Below are positions 1 through 52,919 of a stretch of 64,000 nt of DNA, in pieces (position 1 is the first letter of the stretch; the number at the start of each line of letters is the position of its first letter). The stretch is from a virus. The notes under the pieces are model-generated. The model was not told the DNA's origin. It ran no database searches and saw only the letters and a list, made by a program, of their open reading frames with translations. The stretch is taken from positions 1 to 64,000 of the IMG/VR virus record IMGVR_UViG_3300035670_012166. One strand, given 5' to 3'. The position numbers and the translations under genes are program-made.

Positions 1-292
1 CTACTTGAATATCTTTCTTTACAGTGGCAAAACCTGGAATGATATGAATGCTTAATTTATTATTTTTGATATTTTCTCTAGCAACAGACAAGAGTTTTCT
101 ATCATTGTATTTGCATTCACCAATTAGAATAGAAGAAGCACTTAAACCACAACCATGACCCACTTCAATGATAGGTATATTAGCTTTATCAGCAAATTGA
201 CAATATCTTGCAATACTATCAAGTTCTATAAGATGATTGACGCTGTGATTGCCATCTCTCAAAGAAACATCATTAATTGTGATATGCTTCAT
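1..292 (-). CDS. 4-hydroxy-2-oxovalerate aldolase-like protein (DmpG/MhpE family), partial
   Basis: The first 97 codons are present and the 3' part lies beyond the left window edge. Family enzymes cleave 4-hydroxy-2-oxoacids to pyruvate plus an aldehyde in a metal-dependent TIM barrel, and pass the aldehyde to an acylating dehydrogenase. Visible family marks are the metal-binding DVSLRDGNHS near residues 8-17 and IEVGHGCGLSASS near residues 42-54. The ATG at 292 overlaps the end of the upstream dehydrogenase gene by 20 nt, so the two are translationally coupled, as in catabolic dmpFG operons. Here, however, the neighbours are sugar-nucleotide genes, so a biosynthetic role in making or using a C2 unit is inferred. 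Family assignment is firm for the visible part; the substrate is unknown. Confidence 0.85.
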   Translation of the reverse strand, partial: MKHITINDVSLRDGNHSVNHLIELDSIARYCQFADKANIPIIEVGHGCGLSASSILIGECKYNDRKLLSVARENIKNNKLSIHIIPGFATVKKDIQV

Positions 293-1148
293 TTATCAAC
301 TCCAATGCTTTTACTGCAGCACAATTAATTATATCTAAATTACCAGCATATGGAGGAAGGTAGTCTCCAGAACCTTCAACTTTCAAATTAATAGCAGCTA
401 TATTGTTCTTAATTTTTGTAAGCGCTAAATTTACTTGATATTTAGGTATATACTCACTCATCTTATTAGCAAGCTTTTCTATTTCTTGATTTACAAAAGA
501 TAGATCTTGTAAATATTCTTCTTTAGTTTTAAAGAATATAGTTGTTTGCATATCAACACAAGGTTCAGCAGGATTTACATTCAAAATAACTTTAGAATTT
601 TCTATACCTGAAAATTGTAAAATAGCAGATTCAGTTGTTTCGATATAGTTATCAATATTAAACCTTGTAGACAATCCAGCACTTTTTGCAGCAATTTGAG
701 AAACTACTTCTACGTACTCACAAGGAATTAATTTTGAAACTAATGCAATTACAGGTATTGAAGTTTGACCACCACAAGTAATTAAATTTAAATTTTTAGT
801 ATTTTTTATATCTTCTGGATTAATTACAGGAATAAAAAATTTACCTATTTTTGCTGGTGTTAAGTCAATTGTGTAAATATTTTGTTGAGCAAAGAATTCA
901 CTATGCAAAGTAGCATCATCTGCATTAGTACAATCAAACACAACATTGAAGTTTTTGTCTTTGAAATAATCTATACCATCAGAAGAAACTGTAACATCAA
1001 ATTTGTTTTTTACAAATTCAATACCTTTTGAATCTTTTCTTCTACCAACAAAAGCAAGATCATTTATAAAGCCTAATCTTGTTAGCTTTACTAATAAATC
1101 TGTGCCAATATTACCAGTGCCCAAAACACCAACTTTGAAATTATGCAT
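273..1148 (-). CDS. mhpF: Acetaldehyde dehydrogenase (acylating), DmpF/MhpF family
   Basis: Converts acetaldehyde, CoA and NAD+ to acetyl-CoA, normally inside a complex with the aldolase encoded next. The protein of 291 residues matches the usual length (about 300). It starts with a Rossmann motif (VLGTGNIGTD, residues 8-17) and has the catalytic Cys125 in ITCGGQTSIP, plus a typical C-terminal domain with SAGLSTRFN and VNPAEPC. It follows the ThDP enzyme genes in one leftward operon. No ribosome site is seen before ATG 1148; instead TATAGA ends 7 nt upstream, so the gene may also have its own leaderless promoter. In a phage the gene is unexpected; the context suggests two-carbon chemistry for a branched sugar. 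Confidence 0.9.
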   Translation of the reverse strand: MHNFKVGVLGTGNIGTDLLVKLTRLGFINDLAFVGRRKDSKGIEFVKNKFDVTVSSDGIDYFKDKNFNVVFDCTNADDATLHSEFFAQQNIYTIDLTPAKIGKFFIPVINPEDIKNTKNLNLITCGGQTSIPVIALVSKLIPCEYVEVVSQIAAKSAGLSTRFNIDNYIETTESAILQFSGIENSKVILNVNPAEPCVDMQTTIFFKTKEEYLQDLSFVNQEIEKLANKMSEYIPKYQVNLALTKIKNNIAAINLKVEGSGDYLPPYAGNLDIINCAAVKALELINEAYHN

Positions 1149-1155
1149 AGTTTGA

Positions 1156-1161
1156 TCTATA
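1156..1161 (-). promoter_or_regulatory. -10-like hexamer 7 nt before dehydrogenase start
   Basis: TATAGA on the minus strand ends 7 nt before ATG 1148, with a second TATAAT at 1164-1169. No Shine-Dalgarno is present. It fits the recurring leaderless arrangement of this window, but could be chance in AT-rich DNA inside an operon. Confidence 0.35.
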
Positions 1162-1169
1162 ATATTATA

Positions 1170-1925
1170 CTAACTAATTTTCAACTCTGATTGTAGCTCT
1201 TCATCACTTAAGAAAGGAGCCATATCTTCTAAACCACATTGAACTGTTTTATTATCTGGAAGAGTTTTCAAAGCTACAGATGGATAAATTTCTTGAGAAA
1301 ATTTACAAATCACATCAAATAAAATGCATTTATCAGAGTGTATAGAATTTCTTATTGATTCAGATAATTCTTGATTGTTAGTAATTTTTATATAATCAAT
1401 TTCGTAAGCTTGGCAAATATTTTTTAAATTCGGAAACCATAAACCAGTTTCTAAAGTTGAGCCATAGACATTGTTGTTATAATATTTGCCTTGAGTATTT
1501 CTTATGCTCAAATATCCAAAGTTATTAATTATAAAAATTTTAGTTCTTATGTTGTTAGCTTTTATTGTAGCCAACTCTTGAATATTGGTTTGAAAGCTGC
1601 CATCACCTGTAATAACGATAGGATTTAAATTATTATCAGCTAACTGAACACCTACACTAGCAGGAAGGGCAAAACCCATATCTGCTTGAGCGCCTGGAAC
1701 TACTAATCTACACCCATTTTTTATTTTAGCTGTTTGTCCTGTTATATAAAAAGCAGTGCCAGCATCAGTAAGGATTACATCATTTTCAATCAAATTATTA
1801 TTGATAGATTCTACCAATGTATAGAAATTGATTCCATCTTTATCATCTTCAACAAATTGATGATATTGATTCCATTTCTCTTTCCAGTTTTGGCATTTAG
1901 ATAACCATTGTTCAGAAGTTGGCAT
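1170..1925 (-). CDS. ThDP-dependent enzyme, C-terminal (pyrophosphate-binding) half
   Basis: This is the PP domain of an acetolactate-synthase-like thiamine diphosphate enzyme. The ThDP motif is GDGSFQ at residues 107-112 with the paired NN 27 residues on (INNFGY). The upstream stretch LTDAGTAFY and MGFALPASVG are also typical. The PYR half lies in the preceding gene, whose last codons overlap this ATG by 14 nt in another frame. The first residues here (EQWLSKCQNWKEKW) resemble the linker that follows the central domain in full-length homologues, so the two genes together equal one ordinary enzyme. It is either a genuine two-subunit enzyme or a frameshifted gene. Related enzymes in sugar clusters (YerE type) add an acetyl-derived C2 unit to a ketosugar; that role is inferred. 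Confidence 0.85.
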   Translation of the reverse strand: MPTSEQWLSKCQNWKEKWNQYHQFVEDDKDGINFYTLVESINNNLIENDVILTDAGTAFYITGQTAKIKNGCRLVVPGAQADMGFALPASVGVQLADNNLNPIVITGDGSFQTNIQELATIKANNIRTKIFIINNFGYLSIRNTQGKYYNNNVYGSTLETGLWFPNLKNICQAYEIDYIKITNNQELSESIRNSIHSDKCILFDVICKFSQEIYPSVALKTLPDNKTVQCGLEDMAPFLSDEELQSELKIS

Positions 1926-2922
1926 TGTGGAAAAAATCTTTCAAATTACAGTGAATGAAAAAATCATATTCAACATTGTTTTTTAAATAATCATTTTCAT
2001 CAATATTTATCATAATTTTTTTGGCTTGAGGTGCAAATAAGTTTTTATCATAACCAACGTGAGTAGAAGTCATAGAACAACCCATAGAAATTAAAAGATC
2101 ACAAGTTTGAATAGCAAAATTAGCTGATCTATTACCACGAATTCCAAATGTCCCGATGTTTAATGGATGATCATAATGCACCAAATCTTTTGTTAAGTAT
2201 GTAGTGACAAATGGTATCCTATGTTTTTCAACAAAATTGATAAAATCATTTTTACTATCACTCAAAAACAATCCATAACCGGCAATGATTAATGGTTTTT
2301 CAGAATCTTGAATAGATCTTTCTAAAGTAGATAAATCTAAATGACAAGAAGCAATATCAACTTTTCTTTGTATAGATTTATCTTCAATATTATAAGTTTG
2401 TAAATTAGAAGGTATGTCTATCCAGCAAGGTCCTTTTCTGCCACTTTTGCATTGAAATATAGCTTCTTCTAATACTTCATAGATTTCATTAGGATTTGTT
2501 AAAAAATGATGATATTTTGTTGAATATTTGACGTGTTCAATTACATCAGCTTCTTGAACTCCGAATTTTCTCAAATTAATATCCAAAGTTTGATTGATAT
2601 ATCTTGAAGTTTCTGAAAGTTTGTAATTACCAGAAAGAAAAAGTAGTGGAAGACTGTCTTGATATGCAGAAACTAAACTTGTGATGCAATTCAATCCTCC
2701 ACATCCAGTTGTTGGATTGACCACTGAAATATTATTGGTAATTTTAGATTCAGCTATTGCAGCATTTGAAGCACCTTGTTCATGATGAAAACAAATGTAA
2801 TTCAAATTTTTATTGGATATAAATCCATCATTTAATCCAGCTGCTCCGCCACCCATAATTCCATAAATATTTTTAACATTTTCTTCTACTAATCTATTGG
2901 CTACATAATCACTTAATCGCAT
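1912..2922 (-). CDS. ThDP-dependent enzyme, N-terminal (PYR plus central domain) half
   Basis: This 336-residue protein is the N-terminal two thirds of an acetolactate-synthase-like enzyme. It shows GIMGGGAAGLND, the proton-relay Glu48 in CFHHEQGASNAA, PTTGCGGLN and the closing GRKGPCWIDIP of the PYR domain. A central Rossmann-like domain follows (IAGYGLFL; LLISMGCSMT). The frame is open to ATG 2982, but MRLSDYVANRLVEE is a typical family N-terminus and its ATG at 2922 sits just after the stop of the upstream dehydratase, so 2922 is chosen. The stop is followed, in another frame, by the matching C-terminal domain. Both halves presumably form one active site at a dimer interface. Confidence 0.85.
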   Translation of the reverse strand: MRLSDYVANRLVEENVKNIYGIMGGGAAGLNDGFISNKNLNYICFHHEQGASNAAIAESKITNNISVVNPTTGCGGLNCITSLVSAYQDSLPLLFLSGNYKLSETSRYINQTLDINLRKFGVQEADVIEHVKYSTKYHHFLTNPNEIYEVLEEAIFQCKSGRKGPCWIDIPSNLQTYNIEDKSIQRKVDIASCHLDLSTLERSIQDSEKPLIIAGYGLFLSDSKNDFINFVEKHRIPFVTTYLTKDLVHYDHPLNIGTFGIRGNRSANFAIQTCDLLISMGCSMTSTHVGYDKNLFAPQAKKIMINIDENDYLKNNVEYDFFIHCNLKDFFHNANF

Positions 2923-2926
2923 AAAA

Positions 2927-3880
2927 TTACCAGATAAAATTTTTCTTATAATATTGGACAATTGTTTTGATTTCTTCATCAAAAATACATTCAGGTTGCC
3001 ATCCTAAAGCTTTTATTTTTGAATCATCGAGAGCATATCTTACATCTTGACCTGGTCTGTGAACATTGAAGTTAATGTAATCTTCGTAAATATGATTGCC
3101 TTCAGGATAAAATTCATTGATTATTTTTTTGACAGTATCTAAATTAGATTGTTCAAAACCGCCAGCAATATTATAAATTTCATTTTTGACATCAGATTCA
3201 ATAATAGCAATCACTGCTCTTGCTGTATCTTTTGCGTGTAACCAGTTTCTAATAGGTGTCCCATTGTTGTGTAATGGAATTTTTCTACCTAATGATAAGA
3301 ATTTGCAAGCTTTAGGAATTAGTTTTTCAACATACTGACCACAACCATAATTATTTGTTGGTCTTACAATTACATAAGGTAAATCATAAGTTCTAGACCA
3401 AGCCATAATAAGTTGGTCTGCTGCAGCTTTCGTAGCAGAATATGGATTAGATGGTCTTAATAAATCTGATTCTGTGTGAGCACCATCTGAAATATCACCA
3501 TAAACTTCATCGGTGCTAAAATGTAAGAAAGTAGGTAATACATAGCCTTCTTTTTTATAATTCTTTAGCAATTCTAAAATGTTATGAACTCCCACAACAT
3601 TTGATTGTAAAAAATCATCACTTTTTCTAATTGAATTATCTACGTGTGTTTCAGCAGCAATATTGATAAAATAGTCACAATCTACAAGTCGATCAATTTG
3701 ACAAATGTTTTTCTTTTCAAATTTAAATTTAGGATAGGTAAGAAAAATTTCTAAACAATCAGAGTTTGAAGCATATGTGCAATCGTCTATACCGTATACA
3801 TACCAACCCTTATCTAATAATAATTGTGTTACGTATCTTCCGATAAATCCTAAACATCCTGTCACATAAACTATTTTCAT
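2927..3880 (-). CDS. rmlB: dTDP-glucose 4,6-dehydratase-like (RmlB family) sugar-nucleotide dehydratase
   Basis: An extended SDR enzyme that oxidises and dehydrates an NDP-hexose to the 4-keto-6-deoxy sugar. The NAD motif TGCLGFIG lies at residues 7-14, the catalytic STDEVYGD at 122-129 and YSATK at 147-151. AAETHVDNSI and the late RNWLHAKDTARAV are specific to the RmlB group rather than generic epimerases. Length (317) is near the family norm. It heads the leftward operon with the ThDP enzyme, dehydrogenase and aldolase. TATAAT ends 6 nt before ATG 3880 and there is no ribosome site, so its mRNA is probably leaderless. The nucleotide carrier (dTDP or CDP) cannot be fixed from the sequence. 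Confidence 0.9.
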   Translation of the reverse strand: MKIVYVTGCLGFIGRYVTQLLLDKGWYVYGIDDCTYASNSDCLEIFLTYPKFKFEKKNICQIDRLVDCDYFINIAAETHVDNSIRKSDDFLQSNVVGVHNILELLKNYKKEGYVLPTFLHFSTDEVYGDISDGAHTESDLLRPSNPYSATKAAADQLIMAWSRTYDLPYVIVRPTNNYGCGQYVEKLIPKACKFLSLGRKIPLHNNGTPIRNWLHAKDTARAVIAIIESDVKNEIYNIAGGFEQSNLDTVKKIINEFYPEGNHIYEDYINFNVHRPGQDVRYALDDSKIKALGWQPECIFDEEIKTIVQYYKKNFIW

Positions 3881-7225: not shown

Positions 7226-7996
7226 ATGAATGAAGAATTAAAATCCATTGCAAAACAAACCAGATTAGAAGTTTTTAAGTTTAAAACTTCATCAGGTTCA
7301 GGTCATTTAGCAAGTTCATTATCTTGCGTTGATATCGTTACTTCTTTGTATTATGATAAAGAAGTAGAATTCAATCCTCATGAAGATTATTTGATTTTTA
7401 GTAAAGCACACGGATCTCCAGCAGTTTACCCAATATTAGCTGATTTAGGATTTTATGATAAATCAGAGTTGGATAAGTATTGTAGACCAGGTGGAATTTT
7501 AAAACTTCATTCAGATGCTTCAATTCCAGGATGTCACTTTGTAGGTGGATCTCTTGGTAATGGAATTGGATATGCAGCTGGACTGGCTTTAGGTAAAAGA
7601 GACAAAAAAGTTTTTGTTATCTTAGGTGATGCAGAATTATATGAAGGTTCAGTTTGGGAAACATTGATTTTTATTGCTCATCATAATCTCAAAAATGTTG
7701 TTTTGATTATTGATAGAAATAAGTATGGAATTTTAGGAGCTACTGAAGAAATGCTCAAGTTGGAATCCCTTAAGGATAAATTTGATGCATTTGGATTTGA
7801 CACTCTTGAAATTGATGGACACGATTTTGATGATTTAAGATCTTCCTTAACTCATAAAAGTGATAAGCCTATTGCAATTATTGCAAAAACAATTAAGGGC
7901 AAAGGTGTTTCTTATATGGAAGACAAGTACGAATATCACACAATTATTCCAAAAAGTGAATCTGATATTAAGCAAGGAATTGAGGAATTATCATGA
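7226..7996 (+). CDS. Transketolase-like protein, N-terminal (ThDP pyrophosphate) subunit
   Basis: The 256-residue protein matches the first domain of transketolase: GSGHLASSLS, SKAHGSPAVYP, GGSLGNGIGYAAG, and the ThDP motif GDAELYEG (134-141) with Asn165 in DRNKYG. Together with the next gene it makes a two-subunit enzyme, an arrangement common for transketolase-like proteins in secondary and sugar pathways. Such enzymes move two-carbon ketol units between sugars. With the RmlC-like, dehydrase and heptose-kinase genes downstream, a role in building or reshaping a carbohydrate is inferred. The stop overlaps the next gene by ATGA. Confidence 0.92.
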   Translation: MNEELKSIAKQTRLEVFKFKTSSGSGHLASSLSCVDIVTSLYYDKEVEFNPHEDYLIFSKAHGSPAVYPILADLGFYDKSELDKYCRPGGILKLHSDASIPGCHFVGGSLGNGIGYAAGLALGKRDKKVFVILGDAELYEGSVWETLIFIAHHNLKNVVLIIDRNKYGILGATEEMLKLESLKDKFDAFGFDTLEIDGHDFDDLRSSLTHKSDKPIAIIAKTIKGKGVSYMEDKYEYHTIIPKSESDIKQGIEELS

Positions 7997-8931
7997 CAGC
8001 ACAAAGAGATGTATTTATTCAAGCTCTTTATGAAAAAGCACTATTAGACAAGAACATTGTTTTTATTTCAGCTGATATGGGAGCTCCTACACTTGATCAA
8101 TGGAAGTTTAATTTACCAGAACAATTTATTGCTGCTGGAATTTCTGAACAAAATGCTATCAATGTAGCAGCTGGTTTAGCAGAATCTGGTAAAAAAGTCT
8201 TTGTTTATATAATGGCAAGCTGGTTTTCCCGATGTATTGAACAAGTGAGATATTCTTGTGCTATGGCCAATAATCCAATTACAATTTTAGGAAATGGAGT
8301 GGCTTTAGGATATGCACCTTCAGGACCAGCACACGAGCCAAATGAAGATATTGCTCTATCAAGATCTTTGTTGAATATTGAAGTTCATTCGCCTTCAAAT
8401 GAAAGTTCAACATTTAATTTAGTTGATTTGTGTTTATCAGTTCCAAAGCTTAGATATATTCGCTTAGAGAGAAATTATGCAAAACAAATGCAAGTTTTTT
8501 CTTATGAACAAAATGAATTTATCAAGACACTATATGAACATAATGCAGAAAGTAATGAAAAAATCACATTCCTTTCTAGTGGATATATGCTTGGAAGAAC
8601 TTTAGATGTAGCTTCTCAATTAGATTCAAATAAAAATATTTCTGTAGTTGATATATCCAGAATAAAGCCTTTACAAAACGATATTTTATTATCATCTTTG
8701 TCAAACTCTACATATGTAGTTACCATTGAAGAACAATCACTCGATGGTGGTTTTGGTTCAGCTATTTGTGAATTTATTTGTGATAATCAAATTTCTTGCA
8801 AAGTTTTGAGATTGGGCTTGCCAGATCATTACATCTTTGAAAATGGGTCTAGAGATTATCTTATTGACCAAAATGGATTATCAGTAGAAAATATCAAAAA
8901 GTTAGTTGTTGAATTTATTGAAAATGAGTAA
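7993..8931 (+). CDS. Transketolase-like protein, C-terminal (PYR plus C-domain) subunit
   Basis: The 312-residue partner of the preceding gene. It has the PYR-domain signature ISADMGAPT and the catalytic Glu region GISEQNAINVAAGLAESG. MASWFSRCIEQVRYSCAMANNP and PSGPAHEPNEDIAL are typical of transketolase and DXPS-type C halves. A Rossmann-like C-terminal domain closes the protein (TYVVTIEEQSLDGGFGSAI). Translation is coupled through the ATGA overlap with the N-subunit gene. The order N then C and their lengths are normal for split transketolases. Confidence 0.92.
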   Translation: MTAQRDVFIQALYEKALLDKNIVFISADMGAPTLDQWKFNLPEQFIAAGISEQNAINVAAGLAESGKKVFVYIMASWFSRCIEQVRYSCAMANNPITILGNGVALGYAPSGPAHEPNEDIALSRSLLNIEVHSPSNESSTFNLVDLCLSVPKLRYIRLERNYAKQMQVFSYEQNEFIKTLYEHNAESNEKITFLSSGYMLGRTLDVASQLDSNKNISVVDISRIKPLQNDILLSSLSNSTYVVTIEEQSLDGGFGSAICEFICDNQISCKVLRLGLPDHYIFENGSRDYLIDQNGLSVENIKKLVVEFIENE

Positions 8932-9412: not shown

Positions 9413-10942
9413 ATGAATAATTTAGATGTATTGTTTGTAAGCCCAGGTGGTTCTAACTTAGTTTATCAAGGATTGTCAGACAAAATTTCTGCAATTGAAC
9501 CTCCTACTTGGGCTTTACTTTTAGCACAGTCAGTAAGATCAGTAGGACATAAAACTGCTATTCTTGATATGAATGCTGAAAAAATTTCATATGAAGAAGG
9601 ATTGGAAAGAATCAAAAATTACAATCCTAGACTTATTTGTTTTGTAGTATATGGTCAAAATGTAAATTCAGGAACAGTTTCTATGTCTGGTGCTGTTCAA
9701 TTTTCTGAGTTTATCAAGGAAAGTGGAGTAGAATCCCCAATTGCATATGTTGGATCATATGTTCAAGCTCTTCCAAAAAAGACTTTGATTGATGAAAAAT
9801 CTATTGACATTGTCTTTATGAATGAGGGTGTGTATGCTCTTAGAAATCTACTGAAACAAGAAATCAATCTTGAATCATTGGATAGTATCAATGGAATTGC
9901 TTGGCGGAAAAATGGTGAAGTAGTATTTAATGATCCTGAAATTGTTGTCCCTACTGAAAGAATGGATATAGACTTGCCAGGATATGCTTGGGACTTACTT
10001 CCATATAAAGAACGTCCATTAGATATGTATAGATCTCCATTGTGGCATGCTGAATATGATGAAAATAAAAGAAGTCCATATGCAGCACTACAAACTTCTT
10101 TAGGATGTAGATTTGGATGCTCTTTCTGTATGATCAATATCCTAAATAGAAACGATAATGAAGAAATTGGTGTTGCTGGAAATTATAGCAATATGAGATT
10201 TTGGTCACCAGAATTTATTATTCAGGAATTTGACAAGCTTGTTGAAATGGGAGTGGAAACAATCAGAATTGTAGATGAAATGTTCCTCCTAAATAAAAAG
10301 TATTATGTACCTCTTTGTAATATGTTGAAAGAAAGAGGATATGGTGAAAAAGTCAGAATGTGGGCTTATTCCAGAGTTGATACCGTAACTAATCCTGATG
10401 TCTTGAAATTAGTAAGAGAAGCTGGAATTAAATGGCTTTGTTTAGGAATTGAAAGTTCTGAAAAGAAAGTACGTCTTGAAGTTTCTAAAGGTAAATTTGA
10501 AGATGTAGATATTGTAAAGGTAGTTAAACAAGTTGAAGAAGCTGGCATTGAAGTTTTAGCAAACTATATCTTTGGTCTTCCTGGAGAAGATATGGAAACT
10601 ATGCAAAAAACACTTGATCTTGCATTAGAGCTAAATACTGCAGGATGGAATGCATATCCAGCTATTGCTTTGCCAGGAAGTCAACTTTATAAAGACTCTT
10701 ATGATAATGGATATGAATTACCAAAAACCTATGATCAATTTGGATTTCATGCTAAACGAACACTGCCTATGTTCAATCCTCAATTGACTAGAAGAGAAAT
10801 TTTAGATTTTAGAGATCAAGCATTTATCAAGTATCATTCAAATGAAAACTTCTTGAATATGATTGAATCAAAATTTGGAAAACCTGCTCGAGAGAATATT
10901 CTCAAGTCTTTAGAAATTCAAATTGTAAGAGAAGACCTATAA
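9413..10942 (+). CDS. Radical SAM protein with N-terminal B12-binding-like domain
   Basis: The 509-residue protein carries the iron-sulfur motif C232-x3-C236-x2-C239 (GCRFGCSFC) in a radical SAM barrel, with the SAM-binding VRMWAYSRVDT and LCLGIESSEK. Residues 1-180 look like a cobalamin-binding Rossmann fold (PPTWALLLAQSVRSVGH; PIAYVGSYV), although no clear DxHxxG is visible, so cobalamin binding is uncertain. Such class B enzymes methylate, rearrange or deoxygenate unreactive carbons. It starts right after the epimerase gene and ends 7 nt before the dehydrase gene, so it likely acts on the same sugar. Product not predictable. Confidence 0.85.
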   Translation: MNNLDVLFVSPGGSNLVYQGLSDKISAIEPPTWALLLAQSVRSVGHKTAILDMNAEKISYEEGLERIKNYNPRLICFVVYGQNVNSGTVSMSGAVQFSEFIKESGVESPIAYVGSYVQALPKKTLIDEKSIDIVFMNEGVYALRNLLKQEINLESLDSINGIAWRKNGEVVFNDPEIVVPTERMDIDLPGYAWDLLPYKERPLDMYRSPLWHAEYDENKRSPYAALQTSLGCRFGCSFCMINILNRNDNEEIGVAGNYSNMRFWSPEFIIQEFDKLVEMGVETIRIVDEMFLLNKKYYVPLCNMLKERGYGEKVRMWAYSRVDTVTNPDVLKLVREAGIKWLCLGIESSEKKVRLEVSKGKFEDVDIVKVVKQVEEAGIEVLANYIFGLPGEDMETMQKTLDLALELNTAGWNAYPAIALPGSQLYKDSYDNGYELPKTYDQFGFHAKRTLPMFNPQLTRREILDFRDQAFIKYHSNENFLNMIESKFGKPARENILKSLEIQIVREDL

Positions 10943-10949: not shown

Positions 10950-12119
10950 ATGAATAATTTTTTCCTACCACTTATGAATGACAACATTGATAAGCAAGAT
11001 ATTAATGCTGTTGTAGATTTTTTATCTCAAGATTCTATACCAAAACTAACCAATGGACCAAAAGTAAAGGAATTTGAAAATGCTTGGGGTGATTGGCTAG
11101 GAACTAAATATAATCTTTTTGTCAACTCTGGTGCTTCTGCTAATGAATTAACTATGTTGGCATTAGCTCAAATAGTAGGTGAGGGGGAGATAATTCTTCC
11201 CCCACTAACTTGGATTTCTGATATATCTTCAGTATTGTTTTCTGGACATAAACTAGTTTTTGTAGATGTCAACTTTGAAAATTTATCATTTGATATTGAT
11301 AAGCTTAAAGAAGCAATAACTCCTAATACTAAAGCTATTTTTCTAACTCACGTATTAGGAATCAATGGTCTTACAGATGAACTATTGAGCATTTGTAAAG
11401 AACAAAATATTTTATTAATTGAAGATGTTTGCGAATCTCATGGAACTACTTTTCAAGGTATAAAAGTGGGAAATTTTGGTTTTGCAAGTAATTTCAGTTT
11501 TTATTTTGCTCATCATATGTCAACTATCGAAGGTGGAATGATCTGTACTAATGATTGGAATTTCTATCAAGTTTGCAGAGCTTTAAGATCTCATGGAATG
11601 ACTAGGGAAATGACTGATGAATCAATGAGGCAGCAAATCATTGATGAAAATCCTGATCTTAATCCAGATTTTATTTTTCTAAGACCAGCTCATAATTTTA
11701 GAAGCACAGAAATCAATGCTGTAATTGGTCTATCTCAATTACCTAAACTTGATATTAAGAATCAAGAAAGAATAGATAATTTCAACTATTTTATGTCGAA
11801 ATTAGATTCTGAAAAGTATCATACAAATATCAATATTGAAGGCAACTGTAATTATGCTTTCATTGTAATATTGAAAGAATCTAGTTTTGATAAAAGAAAT
11901 GATTTAGAAAATAAACTTAAAGAAAATAAGATTGAATTTAGAAGAGGATTGTCTGGTGGTGGAAATCAAATGAGACAACCTTTCTTCAAAACAATTTACA
12001 CAGAATTTGAAAATTTCTCAAACATAGAACATATTCACAATTTTTCTTGGTATATTGGAAATTATCCAGGGCTTGAAAGAGAAAAAATCGACAAGCTTAT
12101 AGAGGTACTAAATGGCTAG
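10950..12119 (+). CDS. ColD-like PLP-dependent sugar 3-dehydrase (DegT/DnrJ/EryC1 fold)
   Basis: The 389-residue protein has the sugar-aminotransferase fold (NSGASANELTMLAL; LPPLTWISDISSVL; LIEDVCESHGTTF). The lysine that normally holds PLP is replaced: the motif reads FYFAHHMSTIEGG, with His188. This His is the hallmark of ColD, which removes the C3 hydroxyl of a 4-keto-6-deoxy NDP-sugar instead of transaminating it. A 3-deoxygenase role is therefore well supported by established family knowledge; the product (colitose-like or other) is inferred. The stop overlaps the next epimerase gene by 8 nt. Confidence 0.88.
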   Translation: MNNFFLPLMNDNIDKQDINAVVDFLSQDSIPKLTNGPKVKEFENAWGDWLGTKYNLFVNSGASANELTMLALAQIVGEGEIILPPLTWISDISSVLFSGHKLVFVDVNFENLSFDIDKLKEAITPNTKAIFLTHVLGINGLTDELLSICKEQNILLIEDVCESHGTTFQGIKVGNFGFASNFSFYFAHHMSTIEGGMICTNDWNFYQVCRALRSHGMTREMTDESMRQQIIDENPDLNPDFIFLRPAHNFRSTEINAVIGLSQLPKLDIKNQERIDNFNYFMSKLDSEKYHTNINIEGNCNYAFIVILKESSFDKRNDLENKLKENKIEFRRGLSGGGNQMRQPFFKTIYTEFENFSNIEHIHNFSWYIGNYPGLEREKIDKLIEVLNG

Positions 12120-14680: not shown

Positions 14681-14707
14681 AAAAAGAGGCCATTTGGCCT
14701 CTTTTTT
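14680..14707. terminator. Bidirectional terminator between convergent operons
   Basis: AAAAAGAGGCC / GGCCTCTTTTT forms a stem with a small loop, flanked by A and T tracts on both sides. It serves the rightward Mpo1-like gene and the leftward RfbH-like gene, whose stop overlaps the tract. Confidence 0.9.
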
Positions 14708-16016
14708 ATTTATCAAAAAAACTATCTAAAACTTCACCTATATAATGAATTTGTTCAGGTGTTATCACTGGAGATGTTCCTAAAAAGAATGTATCTGTAG
14801 TGACTTTTTTAGCTACAGGAAAATCACTAAGATCCATATCACCAACTAAATGACTATAAGCTGGTTGCATCAAGATATTACCAGCAAAATATGGTCTAGT
14901 TTGAATTTTCTTCGATTCAAAATACTGACAGATATCACTCCTCTTAAAAGGCGCATTATCTTTGATTGTTATAGGAAATGCAAACCAATTAACATCAGAA
15001 TGCTTCTCTGCAATTGGCAATACAAAATAATCTTCATACTTACTAAAAACATCAAAAAGCATCTTATAATTATTCTGTCGCAATCTTTTTATTTCTGACA
15101 ACTTTTCAATTTGCGCTAATAACATACTTGCTTGAACTTCTATTGGCTTTAAGTTATATCCAATTTCCTCATAAACATACTTATGATCAAAAACTTCACC
15201 TGGAATACTTGGCAACCACTCAGAAAATCTCTTATTACAAGCACCACACTCAGTTATATTTTGCTTACCAATACAAAAACAACCACGACCCCAATCTCTA
15301 ATACTTCTAATTACTTTTTCTAATTGTTCATCATTACAACAAACTAATCCACCCTCTCCACAAGTTATATGATGAGCAGGATAAAAAGAACAAGAAGACA
15401 TTGTTCCAAAACTACCTAAAGGATTACCATCAAATGTTGAACCTAAAGCATCACAGCAATCTTCTAATAGAATTAATCCATAATGATCAATAATATCTAA
15501 AAGCCTATACATATCAGGAGGATTTCCCAATACATGAGCAAATGTAATTACTTTAATCTCTGGATCTGCTTGCAATGTAGCTTCAACATCATCTAGATTT
15601 AAATTCAAACCATCTAAAGAAATATCAACAAAAACAGGCTTGAATCCACATTGAAATATAGGATTTATTGTTGTAGGAAAACCAGCAATAGGAGTGAGAA
15701 CCTTAGTGCCTTCAGGAAAATTTAAGTATCTTTTTGACTTTAAAGAAGACATCATCAATAAATTAGATGAACTACCAGAATTAGTCAATAATGCATAATT
15801 TTTTCCAAACAAAGAAGATAATTTTTTCTCAGCCTTATATGCCTCTGATCCTAAAACAAGCCAACCATCAAGAAGAGTGGAAATAGATCTTACAATTTCT
15901 TCATGATTAAAATAAGGCCCAGCATAATGAACATAATCTTTACCAGGCCTCCATTTTTTCTTAGATTCAGAATTTACATACTCTTCAACAATCTTAAGTA
16001 ATTCTTCTTTTGTCAT
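14706..16016 (-). CDS. rfbH: RfbH-like (E1) PLP and [2Fe-2S] NDP-4-keto-6-deoxyhexose 3-dehydrase
   Basis: A 436-residue protein of the DegT/AHBA fold, as long as CDP-sugar 3-dehydrases. The PLP lysine is replaced by His in YPAHHITCGEGG (His215/216). Cysteines fit the E1 iron-sulfur pattern: C188, C246, C248 and C257/C260, with 57 residues between C188 and C246 and one between C246 and C248, as in E1. DHKYVYEEIGYNLKP is also typical. E1 needs a reductase (E3), not seen in this window. TATAAT ends 6 nt before ATG 16016. Together with the ColD-like gene this gives two routes to 3-deoxygenation. Confidence 0.92.
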   Translation of the reverse strand: MTKEELLKIVEEYVNSESKKKWRPGKDYVHYAGPYFNHEEIVRSISTLLDGWLVLGSEAYKAEKKLSSLFGKNYALLTNSGSSSNLLMMSSLKSKRYLNFPEGTKVLTPIAGFPTTINPIFQCGFKPVFVDISLDGLNLNLDDVEATLQADPEIKVITFAHVLGNPPDMYRLLDIIDHYGLILLEDCCDALGSTFDGNPLGSFGTMSSCSFYPAHHITCGEGGLVCCNDEQLEKVIRSIRDWGRGCFCIGKQNITECGACNKRFSEWLPSIPGEVFDHKYVYEEIGYNLKPIEVQASMLLAQIEKLSEIKRLRQNNYKMLFDVFSKYEDYFVLPIAEKHSDVNWFAFPITIKDNAPFKRSDICQYFESKKIQTRPYFAGNILMQPAYSHLVGDMDLSDFPVAKKVTTDTFFLGTSPVITPEQIHYIGEVLDSFFDK

Positions 16017-16022
16017 AAAATA

Positions 16023-16028
16023 ATTATA
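16023..16028 (-). promoter_or_regulatory. -10 element of RfbH-like gene
   Basis: TATAAT on the minus strand ends 6 nt before ATG 16016. There is no Shine-Dalgarno. It overlaps the 3' end of the upstream gene. Confidence 0.5.
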
Positions 16029-17391
16029 CGTTCAAAGAATAATTCTTCAAGAAATATTCTAAATCTTCAGGAGTTCCAAGACCCCACATACCTGAAATGT
16101 CAAATGTTTTAATTTTCTTATTATCTAAAATTGCTTCATTAAACACTGGACAAACATAAAATTCATTATTCACTCTAATGTTCTTTTGAATCATATTTTC
16201 AGCATACTTGACAAAATCAGAACCGTGCTTCCAATAATAAACACCAACAGTGGCAATATCAGAAATAGGATTCTTTTCTGCTACTTCAACAACATAACCA
16301 TCTTCATCAATTTTTGCATAAGACCATTTAGGATGAGTAGCTCTAAAAGAAACAATACCAGCATCTAAATTTTGCTCATTCATTTTATAGAAAAAATCTA
16401 AACTATTCCATTCAATAAACTGATCAGAATTTGCAATAACTAAAGGTTCATCATTATCAATAAATTCCTTAGCCAACAGAACAGTACAAGCAGCACCTTC
16501 AGTAACTCCATCAACTTCAACAATCTTGCAATTATTAGAAACAAGATTTAACATAGAATCTAAATTGTATTTTTCTCTGTGAGCTTTCTGAACTACAAAA
16601 ATATAATTAGCTTCAACATTCAAATTTTCAACTACTACTTGAATCATTGGTTTACTATGTACTTCAATCAATGGTTTTGGAAAAGTATAACCAGCTTGAA
16701 GAAATCTACTACCATTACCAGCCATAGGAATTAATACATTCATCTTTTTATCAACCCATCTTTCTATGTGTTTATTATTACAACTAAATGCATTATATAT
16801 TTTTTCATAGTCAAAGTCATCAGTGTTGTTTACCCTCAATACTTTAGCTCCTGATCTATATGCAGAAGTAAGTCCAGTAGGTGAATCTTCTACTATCAAT
16901 GTAGAATCTGGCAATACACCAAAATATGACATAGCCTTCCAATATATTTCTGGATGAGGCTTAGCATATTTAACATCCTCATTAGAAAGCACTAAATCAA
17001 AATATTCTAAAATACCAAGGTTAGATAAGGCTAAATTTACTGTGTTTTTTACAGAATTAGAGCAACAAGCAATAAGAAATCCATTAAGTTTTAAAGTTTC
17101 AAAAATATCGATAAATTTGTAATTTTTTTGCAACTTAGATAATTCAATAAGTGTGTGCTCTTGTTTTTTATCAAATATATTTTTTTTAGTATCTTCTGAC
17201 AATTTATGTTTTTTGGAAAGAAGATTTAATTTGTCATAAGTTTTCAACCCATCATAATATCTTAGGTGTTCTTCCCAACTAATTACTAAAGAAAGATCTA
17301 TTTCTTGAAGAGCTGAATTCAATGAGTTAAAATGAATTTCCTTTGCTTCTACTAAAACTCCATCAAGATCAAACACAACTAATTTTGCCAT
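16024..17391 (-). CDS. Fused HAD phosphatase and sugar nucleotidyltransferase
   Basis: This 455-residue protein has two domains. Residues 1-215 are a beta-phosphoglucomutase-like HAD: VVFDLDGVLVEA with the two Asp nucleophile/acid, CCSNSVKN, and KPHPEIYWKAM with VEDSPTGLTSA. Residues from about 217 form an NTP-transferase fold: MNVLIPMAGNGSRF, FPKPLIEVHSKPMI, ANSDQFIEW and GLGTPEDLEYFL. The fusion suggests a phosphosugar is trimmed or isomerised and then activated with NTP by one polypeptide, supplying the island's NDP-sugar. TATAAT ends 6 nt before ATG 17391 with no ribosome site. Exact sugar unknown. Confidence 0.88.
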   Translation of the reverse strand: MAKLVVFDLDGVLVEAKEIHFNSLNSALQEIDLSLVISWEEHLRYYDGLKTYDKLNLLSKKHKLSEDTKKNIFDKKQEHTLIELSKLQKNYKFIDIFETLKLNGFLIACCSNSVKNTVNLALSNLGILEYFDLVLSNEDVKYAKPHPEIYWKAMSYFGVLPDSTLIVEDSPTGLTSAYRSGAKVLRVNNTDDFDYEKIYNAFSCNNKHIERWVDKKMNVLIPMAGNGSRFLQAGYTFPKPLIEVHSKPMIQVVVENLNVEANYIFVVQKAHREKYNLDSMLNLVSNNCKIVEVDGVTEGAACTVLLAKEFIDNDEPLVIANSDQFIEWNSLDFFYKMNEQNLDAGIVSFRATHPKWSYAKIDEDGYVVEVAEKNPISDIATVGVYYWKHGSDFVKYAENMIQKNIRVNNEFYVCPVFNEAILDNKKIKTFDISGMWGLGTPEDLEYFLKNYSLNV

Positions 17392-17411: not shown

Positions 17412-17552
17412 TTATTTCCTTAACGCTTCATCAATCTTCATACCCAACTTCAATAACCTATAACGCAACTTCTGGTAATTAATCTCACAACGGATATCCT
17501 GAGACCAATTATTTCCACCAAACAATTTCTTCTTTGCAGGTTCTATTTCCAA
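17412..17552 (-). pseudogene. Out-of-frame tail of homing endonuclease (remnant)
   Basis: In a frame different from the endonuclease stop at 17509, 46 codons are open and end at 17412. The peptide (KKLFGGNNWSQDIRCEIN, then YQKLRYRLLKLGMK, then IDEALRK) looks like the NUMOD/DNA-binding repeat found at the end of mobile endonucleases. It resembles the in-frame repeat LSDWSKEVDIPKSTLDRRY in the endonuclease itself. A frameshift just before 17509 would join them. No start or ribosome site exists for a separate gene. Confidence 0.6.
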
Positions 17553-18684
17553 TCAAGTCTAAATATCTTGATTTTGGAATATTGTGCTTTTCATAATTGC
17601 TTTTTCCTACAATTCCATTCTTATAATTATCACGAACAATTTTGGCAATTTTATAACTTTCTAAATCTTTTTCAGATTTTTGTTTTCCTAAATTAAGTCT
17701 TTTATCTGTAGAGAAAATTTGTTCAATAGATAATCCTTGTCTGTATCTTCTATCTAAAGTAGATTTCGGAATATCAACTTCTTTGCTCCAATCTGAAAGC
17801 GACAATGTTTTATCATTGTATGTTAGATAAATTGTTTCTTGATTGGATTTTTGATATACATAATTTTCGTCAAACCAAGTACGATTTGATAAGACATCAT
17901 AAATTGTTGAAAGGGGTGTATCTAGTTTTAAAGATATATCCTTAGCTGATAAAGTTTGATGCAAAGTTCTAATAGTATTGGCAACTTCCTGATCTATTTT
18001 TTGATTATTGTGAGGCTTTGGATCTTCACCAACATAATCAGCTAATTCTAAATATTTTTGATATTTTCTTGAAAGTCTTGTTTCTTCTGTCGAATCTTTG
18101 TAAAGCCAATCTAAAAATTTTTTTGCAACATACTTGCCACTAAAATAAAGGTTAGTGTATGTACCATTGTTTTTAATACTGCCTTCACAATTATTATTGT
18201 TTTCATTATAGAATTTTTTTAATCCTGATAAAAAACTTTCAGTCCCTACGATTGATGCTGAATATTGTCCTTTTGAAGGGTTGAAATGAACACATCCATC
18301 ACCATCAAAATATCCTCTAATAAAATTATTCATAAGTTCATTTGAAATATCTTTACACCAATTTAAATTATAAGTTTTATTATTAGTATTAAAATATTTA
18401 TTTATATCTTTTTTAATTTGATTTGAACATATTCTGATAGCTGACTGATCTTGCCCATTTTTTTTGGGAGTAAAATAAATTTTTCCATTATAAGAAATAT
18501 CTTTTTTAAATCTATTTAAAATTTCTTCATCTGATTTGATAATGTTAATTATCAAATAATTCATTTTATTTTCAAAATTGGTTATATGACCATCCGCTGC
18601 AATAAAACCCAAATAATAAGCTGATTTATCATTCAAGTTGGAAAAATAAAAATCATTCAAAGAGTAAGTTCGTTTATCAACCAT
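17509..18684 (-). CDS. LAGLIDADG homing endonuclease with C-terminal DNA-binding repeats
   Basis: A 391-residue protein with two LAGLIDADG motifs, LGFIAADGH (25-33) and FIRGYFDGDG (121-130), so a single chain can form the active site with two acidic residues. A helix-turn-helix stretch follows (LSAKDISLKLDTPLSTIYDVL) and a NUMOD-like repeat (LSLSDWSKEVDIPKSTLDRR). The frame is open from 18720; ATG 18684 is preferred because GGAGAACC lies just upstream. It stands alone between the capsid-gene terminator and the sugar genes, with no visible intron or intein, so it is free-standing and probably mobile. The C-terminus appears cut by a frameshift. Confidence 0.85.
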   Translation of the reverse strand: MVDKRTYSLNDFYFSNLNDKSAYYLGFIAADGHITNFENKMNYLIINIIKSDEEILNRFKKDISYNGKIYFTPKKNGQDQSAIRICSNQIKKDINKYFNTNNKTYNLNWCKDISNELMNNFIRGYFDGDGCVHFNPSKGQYSASIVGTESFLSGLKKFYNENNNNCEGSIKNNGTYTNLYFSGKYVAKKFLDWLYKDSTEETRLSRKYQKYLELADYVGEDPKPHNNQKIDQEVANTIRTLHQTLSAKDISLKLDTPLSTIYDVLSNRTWFDENYVYQKSNQETIYLTYNDKTLSLSDWSKEVDIPKSTLDRRYRQGLSIEQIFSTDKRLNLGKQKSEKDLESYKIAKIVRDNYKNGIVGKSNYEKHNIPKSRYLDLIGNRTCKEEIVWWK

Positions 18685-18720
18685 TTTGGTTCTCCATATT
18701 AGATTATACATCATAAACAA

Positions 18721-26468: not shown

Positions 26469-28829
26469 TTAAAGATATTCAGATTCACCTTCTCCCATAC
26501 CTGTTCTTTTTTTGATAACATTAATTAAAACATTTAAACAATCTTGTGGATGGTCATTGATTTCTTTGTCTGTGAATCTAACAATAATCCATCCATTTGC
26601 AGCTAACTCAGAATCTCTTCTTTTATCTTTTGCAATTTTGTCTGGATTGTTATGCCAAATTTCACCATCAGCTTCAATTCCAATCTTAAGATTTGGAATT
26701 GCTCCATCTAATTGATAGTCCATACTAGGTCCAGCAGAATATTGAGCATAAAGTGGGTATGGCATATTCAATGACATCAATAATCCATATAGCTTTTTCT
26801 CAAGATTTGTAAACATTTTTGGTTGCTGTGCATTGTCTAATTTTTTTGCAGCAAATTTCTTAAAGTTCTCATTTTCAGATAAAACATATATTTCATTAAG
26901 CGCAAAATTATTCAATGGATGAGAACTATTACCTCCAAGTAATGGTGTTTGTATAGGACCAAATAAACCATCATATTCATCTGCTAAAGGTCCAAGGGAA
27001 CCTCTTCCAGTGACAGGAGTTTGAGACATCAAAAAGCCTTCGTGAGCAGCTGACTTAATTTTTCTACTTGCTGTTTTTACATTAGAATTCTTTTTATCAA
27101 TTCTTTCAGTCCAAACATTGTTAATAATTGAACTGGCTAACTTGTAATTTTTAAGCATAGTTGATGCTGTAGGCATTGGGGCTGGCGCAGCTGGAGCAGG
27201 AGCAGCACCACCAGGAGCAGGAGTGCTTGCACCACCAACACCTAAATCTGGAGTAGGAGGAGCACTTTCAGCGGAAACCTCTCCAGTTCCACCAGTAAAT
27301 CCTTGACCTGTAACACCACCACTTTGAAAACTTAATGAGATATTAGGTGTTCCAAAATTTTGATCATTTACAAAATTTGCACCTTGTTCAAATCTCAATC
27401 TTTCAATTTCTTGATCAGAATCTAATCCGAAAGCTTCAATTAAAGAAACATTAGAGATAACACCATTTTGATTTGCTGTAACAAGCATTTGTAGTTTTCC
27501 AGTATCATCTCTTAATTGTAAATCATCAAATTTGATTTTTGGATAAACTAATTCATCTTGTCCACGTTCGCCTTCAATAACAAAACCATTCCATTTTGCT
27601 ACTGGCATAAAAACACATTGTTCAATCCAATGTGCCACTTCTCTTCTGAATGTCTCTAATCTTTGAGCCATAGCAAGAAGACCAACTTGAGCATTACCGT
27701 AAGTTGGACCCTCACCATTAAGAAGAGCTTTATTAAGCATAACTCCATCTAAAATCTCTTGTTCAATTAATTCAAATTCACCAGTAAGAGGATGAATCTT
27801 ACCTGTTGCTCCATACCATTCAAGATCAAAGTTGTGGTGTGTAACAAGAGTAAGGTTTGGATCATTAGCAATTGATGCTAATTCATCTTGAACATTGTCA
27901 ATATCTTCTTGAGATGCTGGACGAGTATCACTTCCAATCTTAACTACCTTGATTGGTAAAATAAGACGTTCAGCAATCATATATTGAGCTTGGCGTAGTT
28001 TATCTTTATATGTAAGAATTGGAAACAATGGTCTGATCATAGAAATTCCATAATCTTCCCAAGGGTTTGATCCATATTTAAAATGATGTATAGAAATAGG
28101 GTTTAATTTGATAGGATTACCCTGCATAATCATCTTTTTGATATCGTCAGGAATCTTGTCGTAGATTTCTTTAGGATGTCTTTCGTTGACAATTCTAATT
28201 TCTTCTGCAGATGGTCTGTATGCATAACTACCTGGTTGATCAATCATTCCTGGAGTTTTGATTACAGAATCAGGGTTTAAGATAGAAATCGATTTCCAAG
28301 TTGCACCATCATGCTCACATTCTTGATTTTTATCATCATCCCAGTTTGAACCGTGGCAATGTGGACAATCAAGTGAAAGTAAAACGAATGAATCTCCAAG
28401 TAAATGGTAAGTTTTGGAAATTTCTGGAAGCCACTTTTGAAAGTTTAAAGATTCAACTAGTTTTTCAAAATAATCTTTAACATAAGCTGAAGAACATTCT
28501 AATTTCCAACCAGAGAAAGGATAGTTGGTATAGAAATTTATGGCTGCAGCAATTTTAGGTTCATTATTTCTCCACCAGTTAGCCCAAAGATAAATCTCAC
28601 GACGAGCATTTGGAATTTGAAAAGATGATGGAGTGAGGAATGGCGAATAAAAATTTGGAGCTGTAGTAACGGTATTGATGCTAGCAGTTCTTGTTACGCT
28701 AGGTCCTAAACCTAAACCAATTCTACTACTTGCATAATTTTTATCTACAGGTGAATTAGGGGTGCTTGCTCCTGATACTTGTGTAGCTGCTGTTCTAATT
28801 GCAGAAGCCAAAGATGTTCTATTTGCCAT
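26469..28829 (-). CDS. Portal protein fused to C-terminal Vsr/DUF559-like nuclease domain
   Basis: The 786-residue protein is a portal in its first 500 residues: REIYLWANWWRNNEPKIAAA, YPFSGWKLEC, LLGDSFVLLSLDC, HHFKYGSNPWEDYG and LNGEGPTYGNAQVGLLAMAQ. A Cys-rich insert (CPHCHGSN ... CEHD) lies near residue 160. After a Pro/Ala linker and a helical part, residues 672-786 form a PD-(D/E)XK-like domain of Vsr/DUF559 type: LDGAIP (Asp708), IEADGEIWH (Glu719, Asp721, His726), KRRDSEL and GWIIVRF. The frame is unbroken, so the fusion is real in this sequence. TATAAT ends 7 nt before ATG 28829. The nuclease could act at the packaging vertex. Confidence 0.88.
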   Translation of the reverse strand: MANRTSLASAIRTAATQVSGASTPNSPVDKNYASSRIGLGLGPSVTRTASINTVTTAPNFYSPFLTPSSFQIPNARREIYLWANWWRNNEPKIAAAINFYTNYPFSGWKLECSSAYVKDYFEKLVESLNFQKWLPEISKTYHLLGDSFVLLSLDCPHCHGSNWDDDKNQECEHDGATWKSISILNPDSVIKTPGMIDQPGSYAYRPSAEEIRIVNERHPKEIYDKIPDDIKKMIMQGNPIKLNPISIHHFKYGSNPWEDYGISMIRPLFPILTYKDKLRQAQYMIAERLILPIKVVKIGSDTRPASQEDIDNVQDELASIANDPNLTLVTHHNFDLEWYGATGKIHPLTGEFELIEQEILDGVMLNKALLNGEGPTYGNAQVGLLAMAQRLETFRREVAHWIEQCVFMPVAKWNGFVIEGERGQDELVYPKIKFDDLQLRDDTGKLQMLVTANQNGVISNVSLIEAFGLDSDQEIERLRFEQGANFVNDQNFGTPNISLSFQSGGVTGQGFTGGTGEVSAESAPPTPDLGVGGASTPAPGGAAPAPAAPAPMPTASTMLKNYKLASSIINNVWTERIDKKNSNVKTASRKIKSAAHEGFLMSQTPVTGRGSLGPLADEYDGLFGPIQTPLLGGNSSHPLNNFALNEIYVLSENENFKKFAAKKLDNAQQPKMFTNLEKKLYGLLMSLNMPYPLYAQYSAGPSMDYQLDGAIPNLKIGIEADGEIWHNNPDKIAKDKRRDSELAANGWIIVRFTDKEINDHPQDCLNVLINVIKKRTGMGEGESEYL

Positions 28830-28862: not shown

Positions 28863-29390
28863 TTAAAACCAAGTTTGATTTGAGGGTTTATTTCCAAAAA
28901 GGATAGGATCTTGTTTTTTACTAGAAGCTTGATAATAACCTTCACCACTTTTAAAATGTTGAAAGCCTTGACCTTTTTCTCTTGATGCCATACTTTGAGG
29001 CTCTCTGTTATTGTTTTCTTGTTGAGATCCTCTAAGTTGTTCTTCCAAAGTAGTATTTTCTGGATTCTCATGATAAGGAGAATGTCTACGTGCTTCAATA
29101 GATGCAGATTGAGGAGAAACAATAAATTGACCATTATTGTCCATATTCATTCTGTGAGGACGATCTACTAGTAAATTCCAAATTTCTTTTTGTTGCTCTT
29201 GATTCATTTCATAATATTCATCAAGAGTTTTACCCATTTTATCTAGAATGCCAGTTAGTTCATCATATAAACCTGCAGGTTTATTATCAACATCCTGTAT
29301 GTCATCAATTTCAGAATAATTGTCTTCAGAATCTTCTGGTGACCAATTAATTCCACCACCTAATTGAGCAAGAATTTGTTTATACCACAT
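28863..29390 (-). CDS. MWY-tagged structural-region protein, function unknown
   Basis: An unrecognised 175-residue protein. It begins MWYKQILAQLGG, the same MWY start as three other proteins here (43771, 50897, 52452). The rest is polar and probably disordered: an acidic part (about 18-40), LTGILDKMGKTLDEYYEM, and a Gln/Asn-rich tail with LEEQLRG, a repeat shared with the two large neighbours. It lies between the 551-residue protein and portal genes, overlapping the former by 11 nt. Probably a virion or assembly protein. Confidence 0.6.
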   Translation of the reverse strand: MWYKQILAQLGGGINWSPEDSEDNYSEIDDIQDVDNKPAGLYDELTGILDKMGKTLDEYYEMNQEQQKEIWNLLVDRPHRMNMDNNGQFIVSPQSASIEARRHSPYHENPENTTLEEQLRGSQQENNNREPQSMASREKGQGFQHFKSGEGYYQASSKKQDPILFGNKPSNQTWF

Positions 29391-52462: not shown

Positions 52463-52919
52463 ATTTGCACAAATATTTGGTATACATCCAAAAGAAAAAG
52501 AAGCATTGGAATTTTATGGTGAAACAGATGATCCTGTTAAGGCTGGTTATGTACTAAGCACTGGAAAATTTCTAGATTATTCTGAAGGTGGGTACGAGAG
52601 ATCATTAGATCATAGAAACATTGAATATATTATGGATGAGCCAGAAGAATCTAAAGGAAGTAGATATTCTGATTATGTTGTTCCTTTTATGTCTTTAACT
52701 GGCGCAATTAGAGTTTCAAATTATGGTGAATGGAGTGTCGATATACATTCTCCTCCTACTCCTGAACAAATTACAGCTATAGCAAGAAATCATATAAATG
52801 GAAAAGATTTTCATTATGATGTAGATCCTCTTGGAATTAGTGAAACATTACCAAGAGCTTCTCAGGAAGCAGTAGCTAATAAATTGAGAGAAATTAGAAG
52901 ACAATTAATGGGCCAATAA
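52452..52919 (+). CDS. MWY-tagged protein of unknown function
   Basis: A 155-residue protein beginning MWYRFAQIFGIHPKEKEALE. A central part GGYERSLDHRNIEYIMDE and SGEWSVDIHSPPTPEQITAI-like stretch suggest a compact mixed fold, and it ends with a basic helix (VANKLREIRRQLMGQ). It overlaps the preceding MWY gene by 11 nt, so both are co-expressed, and is followed by a bidirectional terminator. No family recognised. Confidence 0.6.
   Translation: MWYRFAQIFGIHPKEKEALEFYGETDDPVKAGYVLSTGKFLDYSEGGYERSLDHRNIEYIMDEPEESKGSRYSDYVVPFMSLTGAIRVSNYGEWSVDIHSPPTPEQITAIARNHINGKDFHYDVDPLGISETLPRASQEAVANKLREIRRQLMGQ

Follow-up and report, generated by a model that had tools for sequence, protein, structure and literature searches.

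A conserved phage gene cassette predicted to make a sugar with a four-carbon branch

Background

Sugars with long branches, among them erwiniose and caryophyllose, are rare; branching with a four-carbon piece is known from a few bacterial surface sugars and, as far as we found, has not been reported from phages. With pyruvate as donor, the thiamine diphosphate (ThDP) enzyme YerE attaches an acetyl unit to cytidine diphosphate (CDP)-4-keto-3,6-dideoxyglucose, whereas ErwE takes 4-hydroxy-2-oxobutanoate, -pentanoate or -hexanoate, not pyruvate, and couples it to the same CDP sugar to give erwiniose (PMC12247030). A further YerE-like enzyme, JanthE, has an unusual CDG motif and accepts 4-hydroxy-2-oxovalerate with benzaldehyde (PMC12188165). 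The source of the branch donor of erwiniose and caryophyllose is not named in any open paper that we found. Here we describe a cassette of genes at positions 1-3880 of a 64,000-nucleotide stretch (the window), which comprises bases 1-64,000 of the 120,181-base virus record IMGVR_UViG_3300035670_012166. The cassette probably makes a nucleoside diphosphate (NDP)-activated, 4-C-branched 3,6-dideoxy sugar of the erwiniose type.

The cassette and its conservation

The cassette lies on the minus strand in the order RmlB-like 4,6-dehydratase, ThDP enzyme, acylating acetaldehyde dehydrogenase (AADH) and DmpG-like aldolase, identified by Pfam and NCBIfam profile matches. All four enzymes named in a preliminary description of this DNA are present, the ThDP enzyme not as one open reading frame (ORF) but as two that overlap. 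The first gene (2927..3880) scores 304.1 bits against TIGR01181, below the equivalog cut-off of 365.1, and keeps the catalytic motifs TDEVYG and YSATK; its PDB matches, 2hun and 1bxk, are deoxythymidine diphosphate (dTDP)-glucose 4,6-dehydratases, and its score against the CDP-glucose 4,6-dehydratase model TIGR02622 is 68 bits for a cut-off of 278. The N half of the ThDP enzyme (1912..2928) carries the Pyr and central domains (Pfam TPP_enzyme_N and M) with the catalytic Glu in HHEQ, and the C half (1170..1925) the PP domain (TPP_enzyme_C) with a GDG...NN ThDP/Mg motif. The DmpF-like AADH (273..1148), with its catalytic Cys125 in CGGQ, scores 287.4 bits against the acetaldehyde dehydrogenase equivalog TIGR03215, above the cut-off of 282.25. 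The left end of the window is also the end of the record and cuts the aldolase (1..292), of which the N-terminal 97 residues with the active-site motif LRDGNH are encoded; this fragment gives 94.5 bits with PRK08195 and 74 bits with the 4-hydroxy-2-oxovalerate aldolase equivalog (cut-off 286). The record ends were checked for a circular joining that might recover the rest of the gene, and showed no overlap. A full-length viral relative of the aldolase has both the HMGL and the DmpG communication domains.

Farther along the minus strand (14706..16016), the window encodes an RfbH/E1-type NDP-4-keto-6-deoxyglucose 3-dehydrase (NF011936, 434.7 bits, above the cut-off of 423; PDB 3bcx, 3bb8), in which the motif PAHHIT has His in place of Lys and the active-site His and Cys-rich stretch are kept. 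In a related viral locus (L010), an enzyme 86% identical to it stands directly upstream of the ThDP enzyme, AADH and aldolase. The RfbH/E1 gene of the window therefore probably belongs to the same pathway as the cassette.

A single-protein AADH scan of viruses gave nothing, and 73 IMG/VR loci were fetched by AADH alone with an alignment that included distant homologues. As many as 51 of these 73 loci keep dehydratase, ThDP enzyme, AADH and aldolase in exactly this order on one strand, which argues against a chance association, and the loci bearing the module fall into 28 groups below 75% AADH identity. A ThDP enzyme is found in 72/73 loci, RfbH/E1 near the AADH in 46/73 and a family 2 glycosyltransferase of about 425 residues in 45/73, and a short-chain dehydrogenase/reductase (SDR) often follows 3' of the aldolase. 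The cassette is thus a real and conserved viral module, its enzymes, linkage and active-site residues being legible in the sequence itself. Viral AADHs are mostly 48-55% identical to that of the window (some about 41-44%), and the best bacterial ones 44-45%. In trees, here and below quick searches with support from the Shimodaira-Hasegawa-like approximate likelihood ratio test (SH-aLRT) only, the AADH of the window falls in a virus-only clade of 17 rows (SH-aLRT 99), while AADHs without a ThDP neighbour make up nearly all of a clade of their own, separate from the viral and ThDP-linked ones.

The phage nature of the window is evident from genes for a major head protein, portal and terminase, which come after the sugar locus. 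T4-type gp23 capsid matches were obtained in 10 of 27 viral records tested (one weak and interrupted) and in none of 14 cellular controls, and terminase family matches in 7/27; several carriers are thus T4-like phages. The window phage and L010 share a head protein unlike T4-type gp23, which puts the number of phage lineages with the module at two or more. Only one of the 50,697 INPHARED records matched the AADH, and this Salmonella record has the usual type of enzyme.

A search for the gene set in bacterial O-antigen clusters, suggested in the preliminary description, was borne out: a genome scan revealed surface-sugar clusters with ThDP enzyme, AADH and aldolase in Bacteroidota, Betaproteobacteria, Arcobacter, Omnitrophota, Clostridia and others, many of them with RfbH/E1. 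In Janthinobacterium (L107) the set stands beside glucose-1-phosphate cytidylyltransferase, CDP-glucose 4,6-dehydratase and RfbH, each scoring far beyond its cut-off, a gene content that by sequence is that of a 3,6-dideoxy-4-keto sugar route with a carboligase. Biosynthetic-type AADHs, as judged by score, numbered only two in a class sample of 369 genomes. The aldolase/AADH pair also occurs in two apparent natural-product clusters, one in Rhizobium lusitanum (L007:7938-9858) with carbamoyltransferase, MaoC and CitE-like genes and the other in Embleya (L008:6968-8907) with DpgA/B/C-like polyketide genes (names assigned by eye). The pair may thus supply donors outside sugar pathways as well.

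A probable two-part ketone carboligase

The N half of the ThDP enzyme has its best PDB match in 5ahk (134 bits) and its second in 8rph (130 bits), compared with 106 bits for acetolactate synthases; for the C half, 8rph is best (104.5 bits) and a plant acetolactate synthase next (66 bits). By these scores on both halves, the enzyme resembles YerE-like enzymes more than it does acetolactate synthases. The record 5ahk is titled acetolactate synthase II and is presumably the YerE-like enzyme PpYerE. Since 8rph contains the CDG motif reported for the ketone carboligase JanthE (PMC12247030), we treat this structure as JanthE. CDG is also the usual motif of the viral single-chain homologues, 66 viral ThDP ORFs having NCDGG. 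Given the TPP_enzyme N, M and C domains, the catalytic Glu, the ThDP motif, the adjoining RmlB-like gene and the RfbH/E1 gene, the window pair appears to be a YerE-like ketone carboligase of the decarboxylase (DC) superfamily, predicted to accept a ketone and to form a tertiary alcohol.

The two ORFs (2928-1912 and 1925-1170) overlap by 14 bases in different frames, and the border between the halves falls in the linker from the central to the PP domain. Six consecutive T stand before the overlap, and loss of one base would bring the frames together, so an assembly error in a single normal gene was considered; we regard it as very improbable, since independent contigs (L037, L068, L182-L185) are split at the same domain border. 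The overlap lengths vary among them, L182 having the same 14 bases as the window and L068, L183 and L185 an ATGA overlap. The split thus appears to be a natural gene fission, and a frameshift or sequencing error was rejected on account of its recurrence in independent contigs. In a first ThDP tree the split sequences grouped in a single clade with SH-aLRT 100, beside a single-chain enzyme from Arcobacter. In a larger tree a single-chain group (L190-L197) is nested inside the split clade, which implies re-fusion or more than one fission. The AADH of the window belongs to the main viral clade and its ThDP enzyme to the split clade, different positions that point to recombination of the module.

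Residues controlling aldolase stereochemistry

Replacement of Leu87 of the BphI aldolase by Asn or Trp, together with Y290F, changes its specificity from 4S to 4R, and L87A keeps activity with propionaldehyde at the cost of efficiency with acetaldehyde (PMC3962088). These positions correspond to DmpG 88 and 291, an offset inferred from alignment. Of the 38 aldolases that lack a ThDP neighbour, 35 carry Leu/Tyr at 88/291. Viral aldolases carry His at 88 (70/72) and Phe at 291 (66/70), and so do most ThDP-linked bacterial ones (16/21 and 20/21, respectively). After thinning to below 80% identity, Phe291 was present in 37/41 linked and 3/28 unlinked sequences, which are related to one another, so that a test value for this difference is descriptive only. 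The aldolase of the window has His at DmpG-88 (BphI-87). As the viral residues differ at the very positions switched in BphI, the viral aldolase is predicted to make the 4R acid, although the switching residues in BphI were Asn and Trp, not His. Taken as a D-gulo-octose, erwiniose would have the R configuration at C7, which would fit a 4R acid.

Proposed pathway and alternatives

What follows on flux direction, donor, nucleotide and eventual use of the sugar is inferred. The RmlB-like enzyme would form a 4-keto-6-deoxy NDP-glucose, from which the RfbH/E1 dehydrase would remove O-3, with a reductase, E3, that is probably the host's unless the missing part of the phage genome encodes it. The AADH would reduce acetyl-CoA to acetaldehyde and hand it to the aldolase, which would add pyruvate to give 4-hydroxy-2-oxopentanoate, probably in the 4R form. 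The reversed AADH reaction yields acetaldehyde and the reversed DmpG-type reaction yields 4-hydroxy-2-oxopentanoate, and for this reason the pair could supply a donor of the kind used by ErwE. The two-part ThDP enzyme would decarboxylate this acid and join the resulting C4 acyl unit to the sugar at its C4 ketone, creating a tertiary alcohol. An SDR, which is downstream in relatives and would lie past the contig edge here, may reduce the branch ketone, and a glycosyltransferase would then transfer the product to the host surface or virion, DNA being another conceivable target.

A branched sugar, already suspected in the preliminary description, is by far the best fit as product, the gene set being biosynthetic and associated with both a keto-deoxysugar and a YerE-like carboligase. 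The C2 unit that was there supposed to move between pyruvate, acetaldehyde, acetyl-CoA and a ketosugar is improbable: were C2 all that is needed, a YerE-type enzyme could take it straight from pyruvate, and AADH and aldolase would have no purpose; ErwE takes 4-hydroxy-2-oxo acids, not pyruvate (PMC12247030). The main rival is a yersiniose-type C2 branching, in which the ThDP enzyme adds acetyl from pyruvate while AADH and aldolase serve another step or balance acetyl-CoA, acetaldehyde and pyruvate. It would explain why the split-ThDP relatives L182-L187, whose clade includes the window enzyme, have E1 and mostly RmlB without AADH and aldolase, as expected of a YerE-like enzyme working on pyruvate. 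No AADH was found in these records by a search that lacked a positive control, the same model having recovered 6/6 positives elsewhere. The AADH/aldolase pair would therefore be an add-on, and the window enzyme could still use pyruvate. Viral contigs L182, L184, L185, L190 and L192, with E1, an RmlB-like enzyme and a YerE-like ThDP enzyme but neither AADH nor aldolase, probably represent such C2-branched, yersiniose-like phage pathways. For the window, we nevertheless consider C2 branching rather unlikely: AADH and aldolase have stayed next to the ThDP enzyme across viruses and many bacterial phyla, where a pyruvate donor would make them superfluous, and the stereo-control residues of the aldolase have changed together.

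Several observations weigh against the erwiniose-type pathway. The ThDP enzyme of the window belongs to the split GDG subfamily, and its nearest relative (L182, 50%) has E1 and RmlB without AADH and aldolase. The aldolase fragment ends at 97 residues, short of position 291. The dehydratase is of the dTDP type, whereas RfbH/E1 enzymes act on CDP sugars. Finally, neither profile nor blast searches of the incomplete 120-kb record gave a match to an E3 reductase; such own-genome profile searches can miss, as they returned no NTP_transferase match where Pfam finds PF00483 at 16024-17391. E3-like reductases occur in several of the Bacteroidota clusters, and viral loci are without them. A longer or different branch, built if AADH and aldolase used propionyl-CoA or another acyl-CoA to make a C5 or longer donor, would agree with the acceptance of 4-hydroxy-2-oxohexanoate by ErwE (PMC12247030) and with the shift in aldehyde preference on substitution of BphI position 87 (PMC3962088). 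It is improbable, as the AADH passes the acetaldehyde dehydrogenase equivalog cut-off and no sequence feature suggests a longer aldehyde. A catabolic DmpFG pair that lies beside sugar genes by chance and feeds host central metabolism would account for the family membership of both proteins; its conserved company of ThDP enzyme, dehydratase and E1, the separate position of its AADH from those without ThDP linkage and the missing Leu/Tyr signature make this extremely unlikely. The preliminary description had named genes completing an aromatic degradation route as evidence against a sugar pathway, and no aromatic-degradation genes were found in the window or in related viral loci, meta-cleavage genes having been sought among the ORFs of the left part of the window and around selected related viral loci. 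Aromatic catabolism is rejected on the basis of the AADH tree and the aldolase residues.

We therefore prefer C4 branching of the erwiniose type. Its gene set offers a testable donor route, from acetyl-CoA through acetaldehyde to 4-hydroxy-2-oxopentanoate, across bacterial phyla and phages. The earlier remark that no phage pathway of this make-up is established agrees with our literature searches; the chemistry itself is established in bacteria, for erwiniose. With somewhat less than even confidence, we further propose that several unrelated kinds of phage possess a dedicated C4-branching lineage specific to viruses, with a 4R aldolase and, in one clade, a two-subunit carboligase, whose product would be a phage-directed branched sugar, so far unknown, of the host surface or the virion. 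A recent virome paper counts viral K01666 aldolase as an amino-acid auxiliary metabolic gene (PMC13303688); the module shows that viral genes annotated as DmpG-like may have a role outside amino-acid and aromatic metabolism. For biocatalysis, it is a source of candidate carboligases and of a natural pyruvate aldolase predicted to be 4R-specific, and it offers a way into the question of how phages alter surface sugars.

Other genes of the window and record

The region from 4 to 17 kb holds sugar genes: SDR, glycosyltransferases, RmlC-like, DegT/ColD-like, PfkB, a split transketolase and a B12-radical SAM protein. Next to the RfbH/E1 gene, a HAD phosphatase (PF13419, 98 bits) fused to a nucleotidyltransferase domain (PF00483, 51 bits; 16024..17391, minus strand) is possibly a sugar-activating enzyme. 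A second DegT-family protein (10950..12119, plus strand) is ColD-like, with His replacing the pyridoxal phosphate lysine in HHMSTIEGG; it scores 193.5 bits against the RfbH model, below the cut-off, and is linked to the pathway only by its location in the sugar locus. The transketolase is encoded as N and C halves in two genes (7226-8931, plus strand), and the B12-binding radical SAM protein lies at 9413-10942 in the same locus. It is possible that these represent a second C2-transfer route.

A LAGLIDADG-type homing endonuclease gene (17509-18720, minus strand) directly adjoins that of the major head protein. The portal protein (26469-28829, minus strand) has an unusual C-terminal fusion to a DUF559/MTES_1575 restriction-nuclease-like domain (residues ~703-771). 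Nine mostly dissimilar proteins have Met-Trp-Tyr at or near the N-terminus, and this tripeptide occurs nowhere else among the 38,635 residues of the ORF set; the nine are encoded at 28863-29390, 43771-46485, 50897-52462 and 52452-52919 of the window and at 89587-90495, 108686-109102, 110678-111796, 112174-114024 and 114025-115776 of the record. This start is perhaps a shared leader for targeting or processing. At 112174-120180 of the record (L004), two adjoining large proteins share a near-identical end (VKSM-KIAQKLD-K--Y-LADK-T-ILRK), and two adjacent PcfJ-like paralogues lie beside them.

Comparison with known systems

The DmpFG/BphIJ complex comprises the same two families as the AADH/aldolase pair, with the same catalytic Cys, Arg-Asp, His, metal ligands and communication domain. 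It differs in its aromatic context and in having Leu87/Tyr290, where the cassette has no aromatic context and the viral aldolases mostly have His/Phe instead. The RfbH enzyme is like the CDP-4-keto-6-deoxyglucose 3-dehydrase E1 (PDB 3bcx, 3bb8) in score, active-site His and Cys-rich stretch, but no E3 partner was found in the phage. JanthE, as represented by 8rph, is the top solved relative of the C half and the second of the N half, and falls inside the viral and bacterial ThDP-AADH-aldolase tree; the window enzyme differs in being two-part and in having GDG in place of CDG.

YerE and yersiniose A share with the cassette the logic of a 3,6-dideoxy-4-keto sugar and a ThDP carboligase, although YerE uses pyruvate and needs neither AADH nor aldolase (PMC12247030). 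The ErwE/erwiniose system of Pectobacterium atrosepticum, compared here by its published description, has a YerE-like ThDP enzyme, a hydroxylated 2-oxo-acid donor and a 3,6-dideoxy-4-keto acceptor (PMC12247030), with which the enzymes of the cassette agree. There the product is a bacterial surface polysaccharide built from a CDP sugar, whereas here the genes are those of a phage, with an RmlB-type dehydratase and a two-part ThDP enzyme.

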